Assembly: GCA_000981645.1 (NCBI GenBank)
Contig: LAQC01000035.1
Span: 1-48,608, forward strand
Direction: 5' to 3'
DNA from: Cryomorphaceae bacterium ASP10-05a
GTDB taxonomy: Bacteria; Bacteroidota; Bacteroidia; Flavobacteriales_D; Sanyastnellaceae
Length of the DNA stretch: 48,608 nucleotides
Positions 34,963 to 48,608 of the stretch are shown here, piece by piece. A program made the translations under genes and the position numbers. Numbering within the stretch: the first letter of the stretch is position 1; every line of letters begins with the position of its first letter. Under the pieces are notes generated by a model that was not told the DNA's origin, did no database searches, and saw only the letters and a program-made list of their open reading frames with translations.

Positions 34963-37900
34963 ATGAAACAGATTTATCTTTTACTAGTTCTGATGACTTT
35001 TGCCTCAGCCCACGTCTTTTCTCAAAAAATGGACGTTACTGGATCGGTACTCTCTTCAGATGATAACTCTCCTTTACCTAGTGCTACTATTTATGAAAAA
35101 GGCACAGCTAACACCAGTATTACAGATGTAAATGGAACCTACAAAATAAGCGTAGAAAACTCCCAAGCCGTTTTGGTTTTTTCATTCGTAGGTTATGTGG
35201 AGCAAGAGTTCACTGTTGGAGTAAAAAGCTCTATTAATGTCTCTCTGAACCCCAACGTAAGGGACTTAGACCAAGCCATAGTAATGGGGTACGGGAATCA
35301 GAAAAGAAGCAAGATTTCCGGATCTGTTTCAACCCTTGATTCAAAAGAAATTACTTCTATTCCAATTTTAAGAACAGAACAAGCTTTACAAGGAAGATCA
35401 GCTGGGGTTCAAGTAACTCAGAACTCTGGTCAACCGGGAAGTGCCCAATCCATAAGAATTAGAGGTACAGGTTCTATTAATAACTCAGAACCATTATTCG
35501 TAGTAGATGGAATACCAAGCTTCGGTATAGATTACTTAAATCCTGCGGATATAGAATCTATGACTATTCTTAAAGATGCCGCTTCTGCTGCAATTTATGG
35601 AGCTAGAGGAGGTAACGGAGTAGTTCTAGTAACTACTAAGAAAGGAGCTGTCAACCAGCCTGCTCAGATTACATATGACACCTATTACGGGATGCAAGAG
35701 CCTTGGAAAAAAGTAGCTTTACTAAATGCAGAACAATACGCCATTATTATGAATGAAAGCAGAGCTTCTGCTGGACTTAACCCTGACCCTGCTTTAAGTA
35801 ACCCTTCTCTCTTAGGAGAAGGAACTGATTGGCAAGATGCTATTTTCCAGAGAGCTCCTATGATTAGTCATTCTTTTAGCTTTTCTAGAGGAACCGAAAA
35901 CTCTTCTACTGCTTTAGGAGCTAGTTACTTTTTACAAGATGGTATTGTAGGTGGAGAAAAAGGGAGGTTCGAGAGATACACCTTCAGAGTAAATACTACT
36001 CAATCAGGCGGGAAAAAATTCAGACTAGGTCAAAACATCAATTACACTTATTTGACTAGAAATGCGCTGACTGAAAATAACGAATTTACCTCTCCAGTTC
36101 TAAGAGCATTAAATATGGATCCTGTAACTCCTGTTAGTAGACCTAACGGGAATTACTCTTACTCTAATTTTATAGACTCTGATATAGCGAATCCAGTAAG
36201 TGCCATCGAAAACACATTCGACAATTACACTACAAATAGAATAGTCGCTAGTGCCTATGGAGAGTACGACATTTTAGAAAACCTAACCTTCAGATCTACA
36301 TTCACCTTTGATTTATCGTTAGGCTCTCAGAACATCTTCTTTCCTGAATTTGATTTAGGTGTAGTTCCAAATGACCCGAACAGACCATCTTATGAATGGA
36401 GAGAAACTAATTCATTAGTTAGAATCGAAAATAAGTTTAGTAACTGGCAATGGGAAAATGTAGCGACTTACAATAAAGACTTCAAGACAGGAGATAAACT
36501 TACAGTAATAGCAGGTTATTCGGCATTAGCTAATAAATTTGAAAACCTATCTGGTTCTAGAGACAGTTTGGCTACTAATAGTGTAGAACAAGCATACCTA
36601 GATAACTCTTTAAATTTTGCGGAGCAATCTCCCCGTTCAGGTGGTGGAATAGGAGAATCTACCTTCCTTTCTACATTTATGAGAACGACTTACGATGTAG
36701 GTGAAGAATTCTCTTTCGCAGGAACAATTAGAAGAGATGGTTCTTCTAGATTTGGTAGAAATAATAGATACGGTATTTTCCCTTCAATTTCAGGAGCGTG
36801 GAACTTAACCGGTAAAGAATTTGTTAAATCGAATGATAAGATAGACTTCCTAAAGGTAAGGGCAAGTTGGGGTCAAAATGGTAACGCAGACGGGATAGGT
36901 AACTATGACTATACTGCACTAGTTATAAATGGCCTTAATTATACTCTTGGAGGTAACCAACAGCAAACAAACGGAGCAGGACCAGTTTTCACATCTAACC
37001 CTGATTTAAGATGGGAAACCGTTCAGCAAACTAACGTAGGTGTGGATGCTGATTTTTATAACGGGAAGATTAACATGGTATTGGATTACTTTATTAAAGA
37101 CACTAAAGACATGTTGGCTTCTGTTCCTATTCCAGGAGTTGTCGGTTTAGAACCATCTGCTACCAACGTAGCTTCGGCTAGAAACTCAGGAATAGAACTT
37201 TACTTAAACTATAGAAATAACGATAGAGATGATTTCACTTATTCTGTAGGTGGAAATATATCTTTCATCAAAAATGAAGTTACTGACTTAGGAGAAGGTG
37301 GACAGCCAATCTCTACCGGTAATGTATTTGGCTCAGGAGATTTCGTTTCTTTTACTGAAATAGGAATGCCTATCGCATATTTCTACGGTTATGAAACCAA
37401 TGGAATTTTTCAAACGGATGAAGCGGCTATATCAAATGCAGCTCAACCTAATGCTCAAGCAGGAGATGTAATCTTTGTAGATCAAAATGGAGATGGAGAA
37501 TTAGACAGTGGCGATAAAGTCATGATAGGTAACCCTCATCCCGATTTCACCTATGGATTTAATATCGAAGCGAAGTATAAGAACTTCGATATGAGTTTAT
37601 TCTTACAAGGAACTAAAGGAAACGACCTGTATAACGGAATCTTTAGATATGATTTAAATACGACCAACCTTCCTATTTCTGCATTAGAAAGATGGACTGG
37701 TGAAGGAAGTACTAATGAGAATCCTAGAATCTCAGTGTCAGATCCAAATCAAAATAATAGAGTCTCTGACAGATTCGTAGAAGATGGTTCATTTATGAGA
37801 GTAAAAAACTTACAGTTAGGGTACACTTTACCTAAGTCTGTGATGCAAAAGATTAAACTTAGAAAGATTAGAGTTTATATATCTGCATCAAACTTATTTA

Positions 37901-38025
37901 CCTTTACTAACTACAGCGGATTGGATCCAGAGATTGGTTCTAGAGGTACTTTGGAAATAGGAATAGACAGAGGATTTTATCCAGCTGCCAGAATGTTTAT
38001 GGGAGGATTAAACGTAACATTTTAA
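34963..38025 (+). CDS. SusC/RagA-family TonB-linked outer membrane protein
   Basis: N-terminal CarboxypepD-reg-like domain, FVVDGIPSFG...LNPADIESMTILKDAASAAIYGARGGNGVVLVTTKKG, terminal barrel. Confidence 0.97.
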   Translation: MKQIYLLLVLMTFASAHVFSQKMDVTGSVLSSDDNSPLPSATIYEKGTANTSITDVNGTYKISVENSQAVLVFSFVGYVEQEFTVGVKSSINVSLNPNVRDLDQAIVMGYGNQKRSKISGSVSTLDSKEITSIPILRTEQALQGRSAGVQVTQNSGQPGSAQSIRIRGTGSINNSEPLFVVDGIPSFGIDYLNPADIESMTILKDAASAAIYGARGGNGVVLVTTKKGAVNQPAQITYDTYYGMQEPWKKVALLNAEQYAIIMNESRASAGLNPDPALSNPSLLGEGTDWQDAIFQRAPMISHSFSFSRGTENSSTALGASYFLQDGIVGGEKGRFERYTFRVNTTQSGGKKFRLGQNINYTYLTRNALTENNEFTSPVLRALNMDPVTPVSRPNGNYSYSNFIDSDIANPVSAIENTFDNYTTNRIVASAYGEYDILENLTFRSTFTFDLSLGSQNIFFPEFDLGVVPNDPNRPSYEWRETNSLVRIENKFSNWQWENVATYNKDFKTGDKLTVIAGYSALANKFENLSGSRDSLATNSVEQAYLDNSLNFAEQSPRSGGGIGESTFLSTFMRTTYDVGEEFSFAGTIRRDGSSRFGRNNRYGIFPSISGAWNLTGKEFVKSNDKIDFLKVRASWGQNGNADGIGNYDYTALVINGLNYTLGGNQQQTNGAGPVFTSNPDLRWETVQQTNVGVDADFYNGKINMVLDYFIKDTKDMLASVPIPGVVGLEPSATNVASARNSGIELYLNYRNNDRDDFTYSVGGNISFIKNEVTDLGEGGQPISTGNVFGSGDFVSFTEIGMPIAYFYGYETNGIFQTDEAAISNAAQPNAQAGDVIFVDQNGDGELDSGDKVMIGNPHPDFTYGFNIEAKYKNFDMSLFLQGTKGNDLYNGIFRYDLNTTNLPISALERWTGEGSTNENPRISVSDPNQNNRVSDRFVEDGSFMRVKNLQLGYTLPKSVMQKIKLRKIRVYISASNLFTFTNYSGLDPEIGSRGTLEIGIDRGFYPAARMFMGGLNVTF

Positions 38026-38036
38026 TTAAAAAGAAA

Positions 38037-39560
38037 ATGAATAAATTAACACTAGTACTAGCACTTTTAAGCCTTTTGATTTTTTCTACATGCTCAAAAG
38101 ATTTTCTAGAAGTAGAACCATTAGTAGGTTCAACAGAAGTAAATTATTATCAAAACGGAAATGATGCTGAAGCAGCCATTATAGCCTGCTACAATCCTCT
38201 TCAACAAGAAGTAACCAATATTCAGGGAAGTGGGCAGCTATCCCCTCATTTCAGGTGGTATTTCGGAGATATTTGTTCAGACGACTCTGAAAAAGGTGGC
38301 TCAGGTGATGGAGACGAGCCAGAATTATTACAATTTGAGAACTTTAACGGAACAGCCAATTCGAAGCTCATTTTAGCCGAATGGCAAGTGGCTTACAAAG
38401 GAATAGCATACTGTAACATAGCTTTAGACAAGATTCCAGGTATAGAGATGGATGAAGACGATAAGAACCGATTTCTAGCCGAAGCTAAATTCATCAGAGC
38501 CTACAATTATTACACGTTAGTAACTATGTTTGGTGGCGTCCCCCTTATTACTGAAGCACTTTCTCCAAGTGAATATCAGCAGCCGAGAGCATCTGCTAAT
38601 GAAATTTGGAATTTAATTCAAACAGATTTATTAGAGGCCAGAAATGACCTCCCTAAAAGAAGTAGTATATCTGTTTCAGATTTAGGAAGAGCTACATGGG
38701 GAGCAGCTACCTCTTTATTAGCAAAAGCTTATGCTTATCAGAACAACTGGGGCTCAGCTTATGATATGGCTGGTGAGGTTGTTCTATCCAATGAATACTT
38801 TTTGGATCCTAACTTTAGTAATATTTTCACTCTAGCTGGAGAAAATGGATCAGGATCTATTTTTGAGATTCAATACATGAATGCATCTGGCGGAAACTGG
38901 GGGAATCAATTGGAAGGGACTTTCACTAATATCTTTCAAAGGGCTAGAGGTAATTTTAATGGTTTCGGGTTCAATATTCCTAAGGAAGGGCTAGTATCAG
39001 AGTTTGAAAACAATGACCCTAGATTAAATTTATCAATTTTCAGGGAAGGAGATGTCATGGGAGACAGAGGTGTTTTCACCCTAGAGGCTACTGGATTCTC
39101 TTATAATTATTATAATAGAAAGTACTTCTCGAACAATGCAGATGACGCCCCCTTTGGAGATTCTGCTCCAAACGGACCTTCTAACGATAGGGTAATTCGT
39201 TTAGCAGATGTAATGTTAATATACGCTGAAGCCGCTTGGCACACGGGAGACAACCTAACTGTGAGAAACATGGTTAACTTAGTAAGAGAGAGAGCTAGAG
39301 GCGGGAATAACTCAGTTTTACCAGATGTAAACGGACAAGTTATGGGAGATGCGTTACTAGCTAGAATCTATCATGAGAGAAGAGTAGAGCTAGCTATGGA
39401 AGGTCATAGATTCTTTGATTTAGTGAGACAAGGAAGAGCGGGAGATGTGTTAAGAGCACAGGGGTCTAATTTCATAGATGGTGTTCATGAAATATTCCCT
39501 ATTCCTGCAGCTGAAATTACCCTTTCAGGTGGAGAGGTAACTCAAAACCCTGGATATTAA
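38037..39560 (+). CDS. SusD/RagB-family nutrient-binding lipoprotein
   Basis: Lipobox LLIFSTCSKDFLE; LAEAKFIRAYNYYTLVTMFGGVPLITEAL; MLIYAEAAW; YHERRVELAMEGHRFFDLVRQGRA. Confidence 0.97.
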   Translation: MNKLTLVLALLSLLIFSTCSKDFLEVEPLVGSTEVNYYQNGNDAEAAIIACYNPLQQEVTNIQGSGQLSPHFRWYFGDICSDDSEKGGSGDGDEPELLQFENFNGTANSKLILAEWQVAYKGIAYCNIALDKIPGIEMDEDDKNRFLAEAKFIRAYNYYTLVTMFGGVPLITEALSPSEYQQPRASANEIWNLIQTDLLEARNDLPKRSSISVSDLGRATWGAATSLLAKAYAYQNNWGSAYDMAGEVVLSNEYFLDPNFSNIFTLAGENGSGSIFEIQYMNASGGNWGNQLEGTFTNIFQRARGNFNGFGFNIPKEGLVSEFENNDPRLNLSIFREGDVMGDRGVFTLEATGFSYNYYNRKYFSNNADDAPFGDSAPNGPSNDRVIRLADVMLIYAEAAWHTGDNLTVRNMVNLVRERARGGNNSVLPDVNGQVMGDALLARIYHERRVELAMEGHRFFDLVRQGRAGDVLRAQGSNFIDGVHEIFPIPAAEITLSGGEVTQNPGY

Positions 39561-39572
39561 TTAAAAAATAAC

Positions 39573-40394
39573 ATGAAGAATTTAATTACAACTCCCCTAT
39601 TTTTAGGGATACTTCTAACACTTTTAACTTTCTCTTGCGCGCCATACGAGAAAGAGGGAATAGATCTTCCAGATGCTCCATCGGCTTCTTTTAGCTGGCA
39701 ATATTTAGAAGGTGATGAAAATAGAGTGGTTTTTCAGAGTAATTCTGAAGATAGTTTTATCCATTTTTGGAATTTTGGTAATGGTCAAACCTCTACTCAA
39801 ACTACAGACACCATTTTTTATCCTCAAGCCGGAATATATGAAGTAACTTACTCTGTATCGAATGCAGGAGGAATGGGGACAGCTTCAGACAACCTAAATA
39901 TAGCTATCACTGTCGAACTCCCTTGCGAAGGGACACTAGCGCTGTTAACTGGATGTGCAGAAGGTAAAACCTGGAAACTTTCACAAGTAGCAGGTGCTAT
40001 TTCTGTGGGACCAGACCCCTATTCTGTAGAGTGGTATGCCTCTCCAGCTTCTGGTTTAGTGCCTGAACAATATGCTGATGAATATCAATTTTCTGAAGCC
40101 GGTGATTTTTCTTACCTCAACTATGGTTGTACTATTAACCCATGGGAAGGCTATATATGCAATGCTCTAGAAGTTCCCACCGATTTAACCTATTTACTTA
40201 ATCCAGGAACCGGAACGTCTGGTGAAGATCAGATTATTCTTCAGAACTGTTGGTTTATGGGAGTTTGGGATTCGGGACCTGTTTACGACATAGTGGAACT
40301 TACAGAAACTTCACTTATAATTCATGGTGCAGTTCAAACTGGTGAATGCTCCACAGGAGAAGGGTTTTTCACCCTTTCATTTGTAGCGCAATAA
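39573..40394 (+). CDS. PKD-domain lipoprotein (candidate surface glycan-binding protein)
   Basis: Lipobox LTFSCAP; PKD-like FIHFWNFGNGQTSTQTTDTIFYPQAGIYEVTYSVSNAGG; position directly after susD. Confidence 0.75.
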   Translation: MKNLITTPLFLGILLTLLTFSCAPYEKEGIDLPDAPSASFSWQYLEGDENRVVFQSNSEDSFIHFWNFGNGQTSTQTTDTIFYPQAGIYEVTYSVSNAGGMGTASDNLNIAITVELPCEGTLALLTGCAEGKTWKLSQVAGAISVGPDPYSVEWYASPASGLVPEQYADEYQFSEAGDFSYLNYGCTINPWEGYICNALEVPTDLTYLLNPGTGTSGEDQIILQNCWFMGVWDSGPVYDIVELTETSLIIHGAVQTGECSTGEGFFTLSFVAQ

Positions 40395-40403
40395 TTTAAA
40401 TAT

Positions 40404-41588
40404 ATGAAAATTGCTCAATACTTAATTTATACCTTTATTGGAGTTTCATTGTCGTGTTCTGGATGCAAAGAAGAAGAGGAACCTGAAATCGCTCCAGAAA
40501 TCAAGTTCGAAAGCGATAAAGCAGCGTTTGAAAGTGAGAATACTTCTACCATGGAGTTTAAAGTGAAGTTAGATAAAGCTGGAACATCAAGCCTTACTGT
40601 GGACTACGAAACAGTAGCTATGTCAGCTGAGGAAGATTTAGATTACATACCTGTAGATGGCACCTTGACCTTTACTGCTGGTCAAACAGTGAAAACAATC
40701 ACAGTGGAGATAGTAGTTGATGAATTTTTAGAAGGGGACGAAACCTTCAAGGTTGTGCTGTCTAATCCTATTAATTCTTACTTGAAGGACAATTTACAAG
40801 AAGCTACTGGTACAATTAGAAATGATGATAGCGATTTAGAAATAAATGACAATGGCTTTATGTCGGATGACTCATATCCAGGCATGAATCTAGTATGGTC
40901 AGATGAATTTAATAGTCCTTCTATAGACCCAAATAATTGGACCTATGACATTGGAAACAATGGTTGGGGAAACCAGGAATTACAGAATTATACTGCTAAT
41001 AGCGATAACTCCTACACCTCTAATGAAAAATTAGTGGTTACGGCCTTAGAAAATTCACCCGGGCAATACACCTCCGCCAGACTTAAGTCTATAGATCTAC
41101 AAGAATATCAATATGGAAGAATCGACATAAGAGCTAAACTTCCTGTAGATGCTGGTTTATGGCCTGCTATATGGATGTTAGGTGCTAACTTCCCAGAGGT
41201 AGGCTGGCCCGCATGCGGCGAAATCGATATTATGGAATTAGTAGGGAGCAACCCTAGAAGGGTTCACGGAACAGCTCATTGGGGCCCGAATAACGGGAAC
41301 CATCAATACACTGGCCAAGGAATTTCAATACCTTTTCCTGAAACTTTTGCTGATGAATTTCATGTATTTAGTATCCTTTGGGAAGAAGATAGCATTCAAT
41401 GGTTATTAGATGATGAGATTTACTATAGCATTAGTCCCTCTGATATGAATGGACAAAACTATCCGTTTAACCAACCATTCTTTTTCATTATAAATGTAGC
41501 AGTAGGTGGTCAATGGCCAGGAAACCCAACCGAAGACACTACTTTTCCTGAGTTTATGGCTGTAGATTACGTTAGAGTATTCCAATAG
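40404..41588 (+). CDS. Calx-beta + glycoside hydrolase family 16 lipoprotein (laminarinase-like)
   Basis: Calx-beta segment (DYIPVDGTLTFTAGQTVKTITVEIVVDEFLEGDETFKVVLSNP); GH16 catalytic GEIDIMELVG (ExDxxE); WPAIWMLG. Confidence 0.95.
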   Translation: MKIAQYLIYTFIGVSLSCSGCKEEEEPEIAPEIKFESDKAAFESENTSTMEFKVKLDKAGTSSLTVDYETVAMSAEEDLDYIPVDGTLTFTAGQTVKTITVEIVVDEFLEGDETFKVVLSNPINSYLKDNLQEATGTIRNDDSDLEINDNGFMSDDSYPGMNLVWSDEFNSPSIDPNNWTYDIGNNGWGNQELQNYTANSDNSYTSNEKLVVTALENSPGQYTSARLKSIDLQEYQYGRIDIRAKLPVDAGLWPAIWMLGANFPEVGWPACGEIDIMELVGSNPRRVHGTAHWGPNNGNHQYTGQGISIPFPETFADEFHVFSILWEEDSIQWLLDDEIYYSISPSDMNGQNYPFNQPFFFIINVAVGGQWPGNPTEDTTFPEFMAVDYVRVFQ

Positions 41589-41969: not shown

Positions 41970-44240
41970 CTATTTCAAATAGAACGGTATTTTCAAGGTA
42001 TCTACCATCAGATTGAAGTCACCTTCCTCAGTTATTCGTTCCATCTCTATGCCCACGAACTCTAAATCTTGACATGTCAAGTTAAACTGAACAAGTCTAG
42101 TTTCACCAGCAGATAAATCTATCTTGGAATATCCCTTTAGCATTTTTACAGCGGGAGTAATAGAAGCCACTTCATCTCTTACATATAATTGAATTACTTC
42201 CTTTCCTGCCAAACCTCCTATGTTTTTCACATCTACGGAAACTGTCAAGCTATCCCCACAGCTAATAGAGTCTGAAGAAATAGACAAATTACTGTATGCA
42301 AACTCGGTATAGCTTAACCCATGACCAAATTCATATTGAGGATAGAATGCATTCAATCCAAATTTAGGGTCTATTAAATCTGTAGTTTTATGATCATAAG
42401 TGCTATGAGAACTCGCATATCTCGGGTAAGTATATGGTAATTTCCCAGAAGGGTTTACCTCACCTGAAATAATATCCAGAATTGCCTGTGCTCCCTCATT
42501 ACCTGGTAAATATGCTTGCACTATAGCATCGGCTAAGGGTTCAATTTGAGAAATAATTCTAGGTCTGCCCTCCACTAACACGATAATTAAATTATCTACT
42601 GCCTCAGAAATTTGCTTCACTAATTCGTATTGTCCCTCCGGAAGATTCATATCCTCTATGTCCCCTACCGTTTCTGTGTAAGGCATTTCGCCCATACATA
42701 TTACCGCAGTTTTAATTCCTTTGGTCTTTAATACCGCCTCATAAATCTCTTTGAAATCTGGGTTTAGTGATGTCTCATGGTGCACCACTTCCAGCTTATC
42801 ACTTTCAGAAAAAGCTTGGAATATTGTTTTTTTCGAAGGATTATTAAATGAAGTATCCACTCCCTGCCATGTTCTTCCCCAACCTCCTATTAGCGCATTT
42901 AAATTATTCGTTAATGGTCCTACTAGAAGTATCCGCTCTTTCCCTAAAGGTAAAGACTGATTATTATTCTTAAGCAGTGTTATAGATTCTCTGGCGGTGT
43001 TTAATGCCGAATTAGCATGTTTCTCACTTCCAAAATCGGGGTAATCATCGAAGTTCATCACCGGATTTTCGAATAACCCCAATTGCATTTTCAATTTTAA
43101 AATCCTTCTTACTGACTCATCTAACCTAGACTCTTTTATTTCCCCTTCTTCTACTAGCTCTTTAAGAAGCACAGGGAAATCATAATCTACAGGAACCATA
43201 CTCATATCTATACCTGCATCTATGGCTAGCTTGATAGCTTCTTTATAATCCTTAGCTACTCGGTGTCTATCTCTAAGGTATTTAATATCCTCCCAATCTG
43301 TTACTACCAATCCTTCAAACCCAAGCTCATCTCTTAAAAGTGTAGTTAATATTTCATGATTAGCATGAACAGGAATACCATTCATTTCACCACTATTCAC
43401 CATCAAGGTTTTAGCACCTGCATCAATCGCACGTTTAAAAGTTGGTAAAAAATATTCTCTCATTTGTCTTTCAGGAACCCATGCTTGAGTTCTGTCTTTT
43501 CCAGTTAGTGTTACACTGTAGCCTAAGAAATGCTTTAAACAAGAAGCTACATGGTAAGGGCTAGAAACATCATCTCCTTCATATCCCTTTATCACATTCT
43601 CTCCCATATCTGAAGCCAAAAGAGGATCTTCTCCAAAAGTCTCCCAGTGCCTTGGCCATCTGGCATCTCTAGCTAAGTCTAGCACTGGAGAAAAGGTCCA
43701 TGGAATATTACTAGCTCTAGTTTCATAGGCTGAGATACATCCCATTTCATAGGCTAGCTCTGTGTTCCAGGTGGCTGCTAAACCTATTTGTTGCGGGAAA
43801 AGACTATTTCCTGTGGTATAATTAACTCCATGAATGGCATCTATACCATATAGAACTGGAATTTTAGATTTTTTTTCTTGCGTTGCAACGCGTTGAATTT
43901 CATTTATTAATTCAAACCATTTCTCTCTAGAATACGCTTGACCTCCTTGGTTAAGTATCGAACCTACTTTTAAATCAACTAAAACCTTTCTGAGTTTAGC
44001 AGAGTCTAATTTATTTGGTTTTTCCAGATTATAAGGTTCACCAACACAAACCATGTCCAAGTTAAGTTGAGTCATTTCACCACATTTATCCTCAAGAGTT
44101 AAAGTAGATAAAATATTTTCTACCCGCTGGTCTATAGTAGAATCATTACTTTCATCTGTTGCTTTATCATCAGGAGATGAAGTACATGCTACTAAAAACA
44201 TCCCGTAACAAAGAGCTAAAAGAAAACTAGTTTTTTTCAT
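41970..44240 (-). CDS. Glycoside hydrolase family 3 lipoprotein (beta-glucosidase, BglX-like)
   Basis: Lipobox FLVACTSS; WTFSPVLDLARDARWPRHWETFGEDPLLASDMG; GLVVTDWED nucleophile; C-terminal fibronectin III-like domain. Confidence 0.95.
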   Translation of the reverse strand: MKKTSFLLALCYGMFLVACTSSPDDKATDESNDSTIDQRVENILSTLTLEDKCGEMTQLNLDMVCVGEPYNLEKPNKLDSAKLRKVLVDLKVGSILNQGGQAYSREKWFELINEIQRVATQEKKSKIPVLYGIDAIHGVNYTTGNSLFPQQIGLAATWNTELAYEMGCISAYETRASNIPWTFSPVLDLARDARWPRHWETFGEDPLLASDMGENVIKGYEGDDVSSPYHVASCLKHFLGYSVTLTGKDRTQAWVPERQMREYFLPTFKRAIDAGAKTLMVNSGEMNGIPVHANHEILTTLLRDELGFEGLVVTDWEDIKYLRDRHRVAKDYKEAIKLAIDAGIDMSMVPVDYDFPVLLKELVEEGEIKESRLDESVRRILKLKMQLGLFENPVMNFDDYPDFGSEKHANSALNTARESITLLKNNNQSLPLGKERILLVGPLTNNLNALIGGWGRTWQGVDTSFNNPSKKTIFQAFSESDKLEVVHHETSLNPDFKEIYEAVLKTKGIKTAVICMGEMPYTETVGDIEDMNLPEGQYELVKQISEAVDNLIIVLVEGRPRIISQIEPLADAIVQAYLPGNEGAQAILDIISGEVNPSGKLPYTYPRYASSHSTYDHKTTDLIDPKFGLNAFYPQYEFGHGLSYTEFAYSNLSISSDSISCGDSLTVSVDVKNIGGLAGKEVIQLYVRDEVASITPAVKMLKGYSKIDLSAGETRLVQFNLTCQDLEFVGIEMERITEEGDFNLMVDTLKIPFYLK

Positions 44241-44339: not shown

Positions 44340-45707
44340 TTATTTCTTAATAAAGCTTCCTAATACAACTCCATTTTCACCTTTAAGGAAATATACTCCT
44401 TGTTCAAGGTCGTTTATATCTATAGAGATCTTAGTAGACCTTACATTCGGTACAGTTTTAACAATTGACCCTAAAGCGTTATATACAACTACTCCATTAT
44501 TAACTTGAATTCCCTCTATGGATAAAGCTCCCTCTGAAATAGGGTTAGGGTAGATAGATACATTTAGGCCATCTATTTCATATACAGAAACCTCACAAGC
44601 TGAACATTCTCCCCAGCATACTGATTCTAATATCACTGCAGCTTCTTGAACTACTACGAATCTATTCCAGAATCCATCAGTTTCGGCAATATCACATCCT
44701 GTAACATCTGTTAAATCTTCTTGGATATTCCAAGCATCAGCAGAATACTTAAAGTCATATGAACCTGAAGCCAACGGTATAGTAGTACTCCATATTCCAT
44801 TCCCTTCATCAGTTAAAGGAGAACAATTTCCACAGAAATCATTAAAAGTTCCGTTTACCTCAGGTAGAGTGAAGTCTTCAGCTACGTTAGTCATATCTAC
44901 CATGAATGTTACGTCATATAAAGTAGGCTCTACAACATCTCCACAAGCGCCACAAGCTTCAAAACAATTTACATCAAGTACTATATCTTCACCAGCTACA
45001 GTAACTAGTCTATTCGTAAACTCACCAGAAGTTAATGTGCAATCTCCATCCTCTATTGGATCAAAAACCTCGTCATTACCATCCCAGCCGTTAATTGTAT
45101 ACTTATACTCCACAGCACCACCATCTAATTCAAGGGTAATTTCATAGACACCGTCATTATCATCGTCAGTCATTTCAGTGCAGCTTCCACACCATCCGTC
45201 TATTGCATTCCCAGTTATATAAACTACATCTGTCTCGGCAACACCCTGCTCATTTACATCTACTCTAAATGTGACGTTTACAGCATCTGTAGGAGCTGTG
45301 CACGTGCCATCTGTAGAGCACTGAGAAAAACATGTACTGATTATTGTATCTTCAGTTACTGGGTCTAAAAGTCTATCACTAAACTCTCCAGTAGCACAGT
45401 CCTGACCTACTATGTTTTCTTTACACGTATAATCTGGACAATTTCCATTTGTAAAAGTGTATGGACATGTAAATCCCACTGGCTTAGTAACTGTTATAGT
45501 CCAAACACCATCCATATCATCGTCATTCATGGCATTTTCTCCTGGATTACCAAAACAGTCTGGACCTCCACCTGCGAGATAAACGCCAGATTCGGCTACA
45601 GTTTCATTATCCATGTTCACGTTAAAAGTGATATTGACATCTTGTGCGTTTAAACTACCAAAAGATAGTATTAAACCTAAAAAGCAAAAAGTGTATAGTT
45701 TTTTCAT
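44340..45707 (-). CDS. Secreted protein with three Cys-rich E-set/CBM-like modules and T9SS type A sorting domain
   Basis: Signal peptide; repeats such as VNGTFNDFCGNCSPLTDEGNGIWSTTIPLASGSYDFKYSADAWN...CWGECSAC; C-terminus VSIYPNPISEGALSIEG...LEQGVYFLKGENGVVLGSFIKK. Confidence 0.85.
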   Translation of the reverse strand: MKKLYTFCFLGLILSFGSLNAQDVNITFNVNMDNETVAESGVYLAGGGPDCFGNPGENAMNDDDMDGVWTITVTKPVGFTCPYTFTNGNCPDYTCKENIVGQDCATGEFSDRLLDPVTEDTIISTCFSQCSTDGTCTAPTDAVNVTFRVDVNEQGVAETDVVYITGNAIDGWCGSCTEMTDDDNDGVYEITLELDGGAVEYKYTINGWDGNDEVFDPIEDGDCTLTSGEFTNRLVTVAGEDIVLDVNCFEACGACGDVVEPTLYDVTFMVDMTNVAEDFTLPEVNGTFNDFCGNCSPLTDEGNGIWSTTIPLASGSYDFKYSADAWNIQEDLTDVTGCDIAETDGFWNRFVVVQEAAVILESVCWGECSACEVSVYEIDGLNVSIYPNPISEGALSIEGIQVNNGVVVYNALGSIVKTVPNVRSTKISIDINDLEQGVYFLKGENGVVLGSFIKK

Positions 45708-45778
45708 TTATATAAATTATTTAATTACAACCTCTATATTTTTAATTTGAATAGAAGTAAATGTTTCATTATATATAA

Positions 45779-45815
45779 AAAGAGCTCGATGAGGAGAACC
45801 TCACCAAGCTCTTCT
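45779..45815 (-). terminator. Rho-independent terminator of the large modular protein gene
   Basis: AAGAGCTC..TGAGG-AGAA-CCTCA..AAGCTCTT; T-run on minus strand. Confidence 0.82.
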
Positions 45816-45835
45816 TAGTTGTATATAGTTATATT

Positions 45836-48608
45836 TTAATCACATGCTGTACCAAATGCTCCAAGGAACCCTCCTAAATCACTTACATTCACAAAGCCAT
45901 CATCGGTGAAATCACCAGGGCAAGTTGAACCTAAAGTAAATAGACAAGAACCATCATCTGTATTCGCAGAAACGTCATAATTATCTGCATCAATATATGC
46001 ACATCCTTCCACAGCTAATACAGAACAAGAATCATCATCAACTGTAGCACTCGGATCGAATTCAACGAATAATGGATCTGTACATCCGCTAGCAACACAG
46101 TCATCACAACTGTTCCAACAAACCACATCTACTACTGTATCACCAGTTACATCAACAACACGGTTCCAGTTTCCTCCGAAATCAACAACACAACCTGTTA
46201 ATCCAGTTAAATCTTCTTGGATATTCCATGCGTCAGCAGCAAACTTATAGTCAACTTGACCATTAGGCACTGTAAATGTTCCAGTCCAAGTTCCATCACC
46301 ATTATCAGATAATTGGTTACATCCACCACACCATCCGTTGTATGTCCCGTTTATTTCAGGAGTCGTAAAAGGATCTGTTACTTGAGACATGTTTACTGTT
46401 ACCGTTAACAAATAAGTACATAACCCATCGTCAGTTTGAGCTGCAGCATTATAATTCTGAGCATTTGCATCCATACAGCCTGGTATTTGAGCCGGACATG
46501 ACGCACAAAGATTAAAGCAAACTAACTCTTGACTGGCATTTCCTGTTACTTGAATATATCTGTTGAAGTAACCTGCAGTTTCTACAACACAAGACCCAAG
46601 ACCAACTGAATTACCAGATAAGTCTTCATCAATAGTAACTGCATCTGTAGAATATTTGTATTCATAACTTCCTTCTTGAAGTTCTAATGTATTAGACCAA
46701 GTTCCGTCTCCATTATCAATCAAATCTGTTGGAGACCATCCGCTATAATTCCCTCTGATTTCTGCAGTAGTGAAAGCAGCAACTTGACTCATATCTACAA
46801 TAAAATTAATATTGAATAAGCATGAACCATCATTTACCGTAGCAGATGCATCGTAGTTATTAGCAGTTGCATCACTACATCCTGGAGTTCCTGTAGAAGC
46901 ACAATCTTGACAAGATTCCCAACAATGAACAGGCACATCATTTGACGCTATAGCACCCACACTTAATGACCTGTTTGTATTACCCCCTAGTAGCAAGAAA
47001 CAAGGATTTCCAGGACCAGTCAATAAACTCTCTTGAACCGACCAACTATCTAATTGGAACTTGTATAAATAATTACCATCAACCATAGGAAGTGTTAAGG
47101 TGTATATCCCATCTGAATTATCATCAGTCAACTGGTTACAATCAGCACACCATGAATTCCACTCTCCAGAAACATTTATAATTCCAAACATTCCATTAGC
47201 TAAAATGTAATCATTCATATTAATGCTAAATGTAGTATTATATAAACATGCAGCGTCTGAAGCAGCCATTGCATTATAATTAGTAGCATTCACATCATTA
47301 CATTCCTCAAGAGGAATACAAGCAACACAAGAACTGAAACATACTGCATCTAGAGTTTCGTCTGCTGCTCCTATGTTATGAAATCTATTGAATCCTCCTA
47401 AGCCATTGTCTAATCCGCATTCAGCAGGAACAGTTTCTTGGTATAACCAATCATTTCCATTTAAAAATATGTAAGCTATTTCAGATCCTTCTTCTGCGTT
47501 TACAGTGTAAGACCATGTCCCATCACCATTATTTGTCATTAAAGTAGCACCAGGATTCCATCCTTGGAAACTTCCTGCTACATAAACACCCAATGCATTT
47601 GGAGCCTCATTACTCAAATCAAGTACTAGCGTTACGTCATGTGTTGGATTATTTACATCCCAAAATCCACTTCCATAATCTCCAGAAGCACCATTAAATG
47701 TGTAAGGAGCTGGTCCGTCAACGAAATCTCCTACATTCCAAACTCCAGCTCCAACAGCAACAGAAGATCTAGTATGTCCAGTAGAAGCCCACTCAACATA
47801 ATCTACAATACTGGCACTATTTGTCCAAGCAGCATCAATATATAAACCTAATTCTCCATCAGCATCAACAACGTCAGCCCAGTTGATAACTTCAGACGCA
47901 CCAGCAGCTAATGATGCTGAAGCTCCTAAACTAGAGATTGTACTATACGCTGGCCAGTTACAAAATCTCCATCCTGAAATATCCTCAGCTGCATTACCTA
48001 AATTAGTTAAAGTAACATCACCCGTTGTAATATCTATAGCCGTTATTCTAACATCAGCAGCAGGCGCTGCACATGCGTCACAACTATTCCAGCAAACCTC
48101 TCCTACTACTGTATCACCAGTTACATCAACAACACGGTTCCAGTTTCCTCCGAAATCAACAACACAACCAGTCAATCCAGTTAAACTTTCTTGAATATTC
48201 CATGCGTCAGCAGCAAACTTATAGTCAACTTGACCATTAGGCACTGTAAATGTTCCAGTCCAAGTTCCATCACCATTATCAGATAATTGGTTACATCCAC
48301 CACACCATCCGTTGTATGTTCCGTTTATTTCAGGATTTGTAAAACCATCAGTTACTTGAGACATGTCTACAGTTACTGTAAGTAAGTAAGCACAACTGCC
48401 ATCATCAACAGTAGCGGCCATATCATAATTCTGAGCATCAGCATCCATACATCCTGAAATATCAGAAGTACAAGCACCACACTGACCATACACATTGGAT
48501 ACATCTCCTGAACCTGCTGTCCATTGTCTGTTTGCATATGAAAAGTAGTCTGTCAAGGGAGCACAGTCGCCTCCATCTACCATCGCTTGAATCAGATTCT
48601 CCTGAACA
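45836..48608 (-). CDS. Very large secreted modular protein: Cys-rich E-set/CBM-like modules, 'GCxDxxAxNYxxxAxxDDGSC' repeats, a lamin-tail-like domain and a C-terminal dockerin-like motif (N-terminus beyond window)
   Basis: Frame open to the window edge (VQENLIQA-M...); at least five full modules ending in CxxxCxxC; lamin-tail-like VRITAIDITTGDVTLTNLGNAAEDISGWRFCNW; C-terminus CPGDFTDDGFVNVSDLGGFLGAFGTACD. Confidence 0.85.
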   Translation of the reverse strand, partial: VQENLIQAMVDGGDCAPLTDYFSYANRQWTAGSGDVSNVYGQCGACTSDISGCMDADAQNYDMAATVDDGSCAYLLTVTVDMSQVTDGFTNPEINGTYNGWCGGCNQLSDNGDGTWTGTFTVPNGQVDYKFAADAWNIQESLTGLTGCVVDFGGNWNRVVDVTGDTVVGEVCWNSCDACAAPAADVRITAIDITTGDVTLTNLGNAAEDISGWRFCNWPAYSTISSLGASASLAAGASEVINWADVVDADGELGLYIDAAWTNSASIVDYVEWASTGHTRSSVAVGAGVWNVGDFVDGPAPYTFNGASGDYGSGFWDVNNPTHDVTLVLDLSNEAPNALGVYVAGSFQGWNPGATLMTNNGDGTWSYTVNAEEGSEIAYIFLNGNDWLYQETVPAECGLDNGLGGFNRFHNIGAADETLDAVCFSSCVACIPLEECNDVNATNYNAMAASDAACLYNTTFSINMNDYILANGMFGIINVSGEWNSWCADCNQLTDDNSDGIYTLTLPMVDGNYLYKFQLDSWSVQESLLTGPGNPCFLLLGGNTNRSLSVGAIASNDVPVHCWESCQDCASTGTPGCSDATANNYDASATVNDGSCLFNINFIVDMSQVAAFTTAEIRGNYSGWSPTDLIDNGDGTWSNTLELQEGSYEYKYSTDAVTIDEDLSGNSVGLGSCVVETAGYFNRYIQVTGNASQELVCFNLCASCPAQIPGCMDANAQNYNAAAQTDDGLCTYLLTVTVNMSQVTDPFTTPEINGTYNGWCGGCNQLSDNGDGTWTGTFTVPNGQVDYKFAADAWNIQEDLTGLTGCVVDFGGNWNRVVDVTGDTVVDVVCWNSCDDCVASGCTDPLFVEFDPSATVDDDSCSVLAVEGCAYIDADNYDVSANTDDGSCLFTLGSTCPGDFTDDGFVNVSDLGGFLGAFGTACD
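46129..46360. repeat. Near-identical intragenic duplication, copy 1
   Basis: 232 bp aligned without gaps to 48103-48334, about six mismatches by eye. Confidence 0.9.
48103..48334. repeat. Near-identical intragenic duplication, copy 2
   Basis: Offset of exactly 1974 bp (658 codons) from copy 1, so in frame. Confidence 0.9.

Follow-up and report, generated by a model that had tools for sequence, protein, structure and literature searches.

Two module proteins at a laminarin-type locus

The stretch of DNA analysed here, contig LAQC01000035.1 of Cryomorphaceae bacterium ASP10-05a (the window; 48,608 bases), carries at one end two genes, here called P1 and P2, whose products are built mainly from repeated modules of about 107 amino acids. 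Directly before P1 lie, in this order, genes for SusC, SusD, a PKD-domain protein, a glycoside hydrolase family 16 (GH16) enzyme and a GH3 enzyme (Table 1). This report concerns the superfamily to which the modules belong, the two types into which they divide in related bacteria, and the glucan that they may bind.

A first-pass annotation of the window, made from the sequence alone, had named SusC, SusD, GH16 and GH3 as neighbours of the module genes; Pfam confirmed all four and added the PKD protein. The combination of SusCD with GH3 and GH16 enzymes is a described variant of the marine laminarin locus (PMC6794258), and the four components of this polysaccharide utilization locus (PUL) variant A (SusC, SusD, GH16 and GH3) were found together in the window. 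The solved structures nearest to the window GH3 enzyme are 8va3 and BoGH3B, those nearest to its GH16 enzyme are beta-1,3-glucanases or laminarinases (E values to 6e-66), and those nearest to its SusD are 9sje and, second-best, 6gcz.

Table 1. Features of the module genes and of the neighbouring locus, in window positions (HMM, hidden Markov model)
Feature	Positions	Strand	Basis
SusC, TonB-dependent transporter	34963..38025	+	Plug and carboxypeptidase-regulatory domains
SusD	38037..39560	+	Pfam
PKD-domain protein, lipoprotein-like start	39573..40394	+	Pfam
GH16 laminarinase-like enzyme with Calx-beta domain	40404..41588	+	Pfam
GH3 beta-glucosidase-like enzyme	41970..44240	-	Pfam
P1, 455 amino acids: signal peptide, three modules, type IX secretion sorting domain	44340..45707	-	Open reading frame, Pfam/NCBIfam, module HMM
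P1 type A sorting domain, residues 385-455, C-terminal	44343..44555	-	PF18962, TIGR04183
P1 module C, FCxxC type	44595..44918	-	Module HMM
P1 module B, WCxxC type	44943..45278	-	Module HMM
P1 module A, subtype without Trp/Lys site	45315..45635	-	Module HMM
P1 signal peptide, residues 1-21, cleavage predicted before Gln	45645..45707	-	Sequence reading
P2, 923 amino acids, multi-module, 5'-truncated	45836..48607	-	Open reading frame; same-genus full-length homologue
P2 dockerin-like tail CPGDFTDDGFVNVSDLGGFLGAFGTACD, extreme C-terminus	45839..45922	-	Sequence pattern
P2 linker repeats GC.D..A.NYD..A..DDGSC, short, two of five	45944..46087	-	Module-HMM layout
P2 linker repeats of the same pattern, remaining three	48392-48454, 46820-46882, 46418-46480	-	
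P2 module 5, WCxxC type	46097..46414	-	Module HMM
P2 module 4, no WCxxC	46496..46816	-	Module HMM
P2 module 3, WCxxC type	46901..47242	-	Module HMM
P2 module 2, no WCxxC; Trp loop NGNDW like GH13-locus type	47318..47638	-	Module HMM
P2 inserted domain, lamin-tail-like by reading	47648..48058	-	Coordinates from module HMM
P2 module 1, WCxxC type, structure predicted	48071..48388	-	Module HMM
P2 residues 1-47, end of module cut at contig end	48467..48607	-	Sequence

P1 carries a type A sorting domain that scores above the cut-offs of both PF18962 (39.7 bits; cut-off 27) and TIGR04183 (33.6 bits; cut-off 23), as expected of a substrate of type IX secretion; among the two proteins this was found in P1 only. 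The signal peptide of P1 agrees with the Bacteroidetes Q-rule (PMC5837995). By sequence reading, P1 does not have the features of an outer-membrane lipoprotein, since its signal peptide ends LNA-QD and it has the type IX sorting domain. Module C is the top match of the module profile within this genome (E 7.7e-43). Module A forms a separate subtype (GFT..YTF.NG.CPD..CKE.I.GQDC) from which the canonical Trp/Lys site is missing. A module at a beta-glucan locus in a different order (L200, residue 604) shares 60% identity with it, a strong conservation between two orders, and the subtype also occurs in L074, L080, L105 and L210.

As the window covers the entire contig, P2 runs off its edge and the 5' end of the gene is open. 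The module cut at this end resembles the GPWCGWC subtype of relatives and the QENL.DDM..G..CAP.TD...YANR tails of L107 and L105. A full-length P2 homologue from the same genus (L047, 2097-5519; 1140 amino acids) starts with a signal peptide, carries seven modules and ends in the same tail; next to it is encoded a GH16 enzyme with two modules. Both window proteins had been described as secreted in the first pass; for P1 this is seen directly, in its signal peptide and sorting domain, whereas for P2 it comes by way of the signal peptide of the L047 homologue. By its sequence, the domain inserted between P2 modules 1 and 2 looks lamin-tail-like; Pfam gave no match to this family at E<10.

No type IX sorting domain was found in P2, which ends instead in a dockerin-like tail. 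All 16 non-redundant proteins picked up with the pattern have the motif CPxDxxxDGxVxxxDLxxFLxxFGxxC exactly one residue from the C-terminus, and many proteins with such a tail have modules and are without the type IX sorting domain. Dockerin-like stretches occur at 24 sites in this genome, and outside the window the tail is present in L047, L049, L050, L051, L077, L092, L105, L106, L193, L194, L203, L209 and L210. The tail may serve for sorting or docking, as a tag not recognised so far.

Fold, sugar site and cysteines of the modules

An iterated module HMM found three full modules in P1 and five in P2, eight in all, and a ninth, cut by the contig edge, can be seen in the sequence, which bears out the earlier count of at least eight (three plus at least five). 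Chance repetition was rejected: P1 matches P2 with E = 2.3e-29 and 46% identity, and P2 modules 1 and 5 are 93% identical in protein sequence. The remaining P2 modules are 27-48% identical to module 5, and the near-identity of modules 1 and 5, as read from their sequences, suggests a recent duplication or gene conversion.

By profile matches and predicted fold, the modules are a branch of the CBM48/AMPK superfamily of carbohydrate-binding modules (CBMs), not an unrelated family. P1 scores 37.5 bits with CBM_48 (PF02922) and 28.9 with AMPK1_CBM (PF16561), and P2 50.3 and 76.8, all above the Pfam cut-offs; both proteins also exceed the cut-off for X25 (PF22058). Among 66 sampled modules, 64 match AMPK1_CBM, 60 match X25 and 58 match CBM_48. 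The proposal of a new CBM family was thus too strong, existing CBM profiles being matched at the level of the protein, an outcome that agrees in part with what had been named beforehand as refuting it; a single window module alone reaches 21.1 bits, below the cut-off of Pfam CBM48/AMPK1_CBM.

A profile of the 66 modules matched pullulanase and AMPK beta subunits in the PDB. Profiles were required for this, as searches with single proteins gave weak matches only (E 0.008 to SEX4). The predicted structure of P2 module 1 (predicted local distance difference test, pLDDT, 95.3) matched 1z0n, 4yee and 8x8k with a Foldseek probability of 1.0, with the glycogen-binding domain of AMPK and the CBM20 of STBD1 at the top, and a new fold was rejected on the basis of these matches. 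The resemblance to E-set, AMPK, CBM48 and CBM20 domains that had first been noticed in the letters is therefore supported by HMM, by PDB profile search and by predicted fold.

Across 338 modules, W28 is conserved in 87%, K58 in 90%, W64 in 83% and N85 in 93%. HMM alignment places N85 on N150 of AMPK-beta1, and the four residues are the counterparts of AMPK-beta1 W100, K126, W133 and N150, which make its glucan contacts.

The cysteine plan described in the first pass holds in one part and not in the other: the CxxxCxxC tail is present in all eight full modules of the window, whereas the WCxxC-like pair is confined to five, P1 modules B and C and P2 modules 1, 3 and 5, in which C(x2)C follows the first aromatic residue. 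The number of cysteines is even in 378 of 391 full modules. In 277 modules C29 and C32 occur together, in 147 neither occurs and in 15 only one of them does, so that the pair is intact or wholly absent in 424 of 439. Wherever C101 is missing (24 modules), C76, C105 and C108 are all kept; of these modules, the ones looked at mostly have a new cysteine close to the N-terminus. Because such parity and joint presence or absence are the pattern expected of paired disulfides, the disulfide stabilization proposed earlier is well supported.

Module types at beta-glucan and GH13 loci

The module occurs in 92 of 120 genomes of relatives. For 13 complete or near-complete relatives, we compared the positions of 57 module genes with those of every GH16, GH3 and GH13 gene, using a limit of 12 kb. 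Thirteen of the 57 lie within this distance of GH16 or GH3 (expected at most 1.9) and 19 within it of GH13 (expected 2.5), six of these 19 being N-terminal domains of GH13 enzymes with a partial profile match only; none lies near both. These counts give good support to the association with beta-glucan loci, and the WCxxC branch is not found mostly away from glycan loci. The first pass had overlooked that modules of this superfamily lacking WCxxC also sit in GH13 loci of these bacteria, and the comparison of these GH13-locus modules with the WCxxC modules is the informative part of the analysis.

In all loci read, the C29-C32 pair (WCxxC) is present in 228 of 291 modules at GH16/GH3 loci and in 0 of 38 at GH13 (starch) loci; after removal of sequences more than 80% identical the figures are 151 of 192 and 0 of 38, the beta-locus sample having partly been chosen by similarity to the window's own modules. 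Counted by gene, WCxxC is found in 72 of 73 at GH16/GH3 loci versus 0 of 15 at GH13 loci. The spacing from the Lys to the second Trp of the site is 6 in 150 of 156 beta-locus modules and 7 in 26 of 28 GH13-locus modules. By sequence, AMPK beta subunits also have 7, the geometry of the GH13-locus type and not of the WCxxC type. Modules attached to enzymes divide in the same manner: WCxxC is present in all six GH16 proteins with modules (L047, L054, L075, L092, L094 and L195) and in none of the six GH13 proteins (L191-193 and L204-206). The phmmer marker for GH16 had scored L195 as 'none'; Pfam shows GH16 there and its module is of the WCxxC type, a correction that works in favour of the hypothesis that type follows locus.

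The two branches are mutually homologous (hhalign probability 100). The model of the GH13-locus branch (pLDDT 95.8) matches AMPK and CBM20 in fold, and its profile matches SusF in the PDB. In this genome, the start of another contig (C8) encodes a protein of the GH13-locus type that has four modules and a secretion tail (L015, 330-2015).

Within the family, L049, L050, L105, L107 and L109 share the gene order SusC-SusD-PKD-GH16 together with GH3 and a module protein, as does L085, which belongs to a different family of the order; in a second order, L200 has SusC-SusD-PKD-GH16 and a four-module protein, without GH3. Other relatives have a second layout, in which genes for a protein of three modules, a regulator of the NrtR/NUDIX type, a long module protein and GH16 are adjoined by those for a GH2-like TIM barrel, for two or three proteins that match nothing in Pfam, and for GH3. 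In L066 (14709-19385), three consecutive proteins of 650, 574 and 332 amino acids, none with a Pfam match, stand beside GH3 and module proteins. They have homologues in L059-L062, L067, L068, L071, L083 and L086, and are possibly parts of a beta-glucan system. A regulator with NUDIX and winged-helix domains (NrtR/AraR-like) lies between module genes of beta-glucan loci (L066, 11472-12245); it was rejected as a marker of such loci, as a relative of it is found at a GH13 locus (L196, 1089-1865).

Candidate ligand, alternatives and known systems

Laminarin is a major marine carbon pool. We consider it rather probable, from the modules and their genomic setting, that P1 and P2 capture glucan for the laminarin locus as exported, multivalent proteins and that the WCxxC branch serves beta-1,3-glucan; the WCxxC type may be a relative of starch binders that has been re-tooled for laminarin. 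Each module is, by sequence and predicted fold, an E-set domain of the CBM48/AMPK type. In the dominant WCxxC branch, alignment shows both Trp loops of the ancestral alpha-glucan site altered: the loop after the first Trp is pinned by an extra disulfide, which the cysteine counts support, and the loop before the second Trp has lost one residue. The altered loops would then shift the preference to beta-1,3-glucan. P1 would be carried to the cell surface via type IX secretion, and the tandem modules of P1 and P2, outside the cell, would concentrate laminarin for the GH16 endo-enzyme, for SusCD import and for trimming by GH3. That the WCxxC branch is a distinct CBM family specific for beta-1,3-glucan, derived from a starch-binding CBM48-like module through the disulfide-locked loop and the one-residue deletion, is a more tentative proposal, which we stop short of calling probable.

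Several observations weigh against the main reading, capture of beta-1,3-glucan. Among the 13 genomes, 25 of the 57 module genes lie near none of GH16, GH3 and GH13, some of them at contig ends, and the GH16 loci of G080, G098 and G115 are without a module gene nearby. On a tree of 114 modules, built with the trait columns excluded, the context label changes about 5 times against a shuffled mean of 31.7, and well-supported branches yield one independent pair only; a correlation arising many times independently was sought on this tree and not found. The association is real, and it may go back to one ancestral event. P2 itself mixes types, its module 2 being of the alpha-like GH13-locus kind, and the L200 modules, which are in a beta-glucan locus, have no WCxxC. 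Finally, what the modules conserve are the residues of an alpha-glucan site, and only their context argues for a change of ligand.

One alternative is that the modules have lost sugar binding, as has been reported for the CBM48 of CE1 esterases, and serve mainly as spacers in the structure or in adhesion. The CBM48 domains of Dysgonomonas CE1 enzymes, which bound no glycan tested (PMC8040265), offer a precedent, and three window modules (A of P1, 2 and 4 of P2) are without one or more site residues. However, the exposed Trp, Lys and Asn are kept in 83-93% of hundreds of modules and the subtype tracks fusion to GH16 or GH13, neither of which is expected of spacers, and we regard this alternative as unlikely. 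It is also quite unlikely, slightly more so, that the modules still bind alpha-glucan, their place in the locus reflecting general glucan capture and WCxxC merely stabilising an exported protein. The four canonical alpha-glucan contact residues are indeed kept, and every close HMM or fold neighbour of known ligand binds alpha-glucan. Against this, WCxxC is absent from the 15 GH13-locus genes and is fused to GH16, not to GH13; the site spacing departs from that of AMPK in the WCxxC type only; and GH13-locus modules are exported equally, yet are without the disulfide. That the WCxxC branch binds, in place of laminarin, some other glycan with beta linkages (a beta-1,6-glucan, a mixed-linkage glucan or a glycan of algal walls) is very improbable: GH16 and GH3 act on further beta-glucans too, and the loci of some relatives contain a CBM30-like protein in addition to a GH2-like TIM barrel, but the window GH16 is nearest to beta-1,3-glucanases and laminarinases, and GH3 with GH16 is the described laminarin-locus variant (PMC6794258).

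Were the WCxxC branch such a distinct family derived from a starch-binding module, it would represent a natural switch from alpha- to beta-glucan specificity within one E-set lineage, with ancestral-type sisters in the same genomes. If the WCxxC modules bind beta-glucan, as we favour, the GH13 and GH16 sister modules from the same bacteria would be a compact test case of one fold switching between alpha- and beta-linked glucose. Annotations based on CBM48 would also assign the wrong substrate to such proteins, since surveys take the presence of CBM48 to indicate that starch or glycogen is used (PMC4829426, PMC6794258). We found no report of this module type in the literature searched, and an earlier description is possible. 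Laminarin-binding CBMs in marine Bacteroidota were reportedly the subject of a study in 2024.

The window shares with marine laminarin PUL variant A its enzyme set (GH3 and GH16) and SusCD; the description found of this variant is silent on multi-module CBM48-like proteins, CBM48 being listed there only together with GH13 in loci for alpha-glucan (PMC6794258). The CBM48 of CE1 feruloyl esterases (wtsFae1A/B; 6rzn, 8bf3) is a precedent of a non-starch-binding CBM48 in a non-starch locus (PMC8040265). Unlike the modules described here, it is a single domain packed on the esterase, has no cysteine plan, and belongs to a xylan context. SusE and SusF likewise consist of tandem E-set sugar-binding modules in a Sus-type locus, and the GH13-locus sister modules match SusF (4fe9). 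P1 differs from them in being a type IX secretion substrate in a GH16/GH3 context, and it scored 20.2 bits with the SusE/SusF profile PF16411, below the cut-off of 27.5. With the glycogen-binding domain of AMPK-beta and CBM48, the modules have in common the E-set fold, the W/K/W/N site and the Pfam score; they differ in an extra C-terminal strand with C76, C101, C105 and C108, in the WCxxC loop, in a Lys-to-Trp spacing of 6 instead of 7, and in their tandem, exported occurrence at beta-glucan loci. What is new here, as judged from sequence comparison, is a split inside the CBM48/AMPK superfamily that follows the type of locus.

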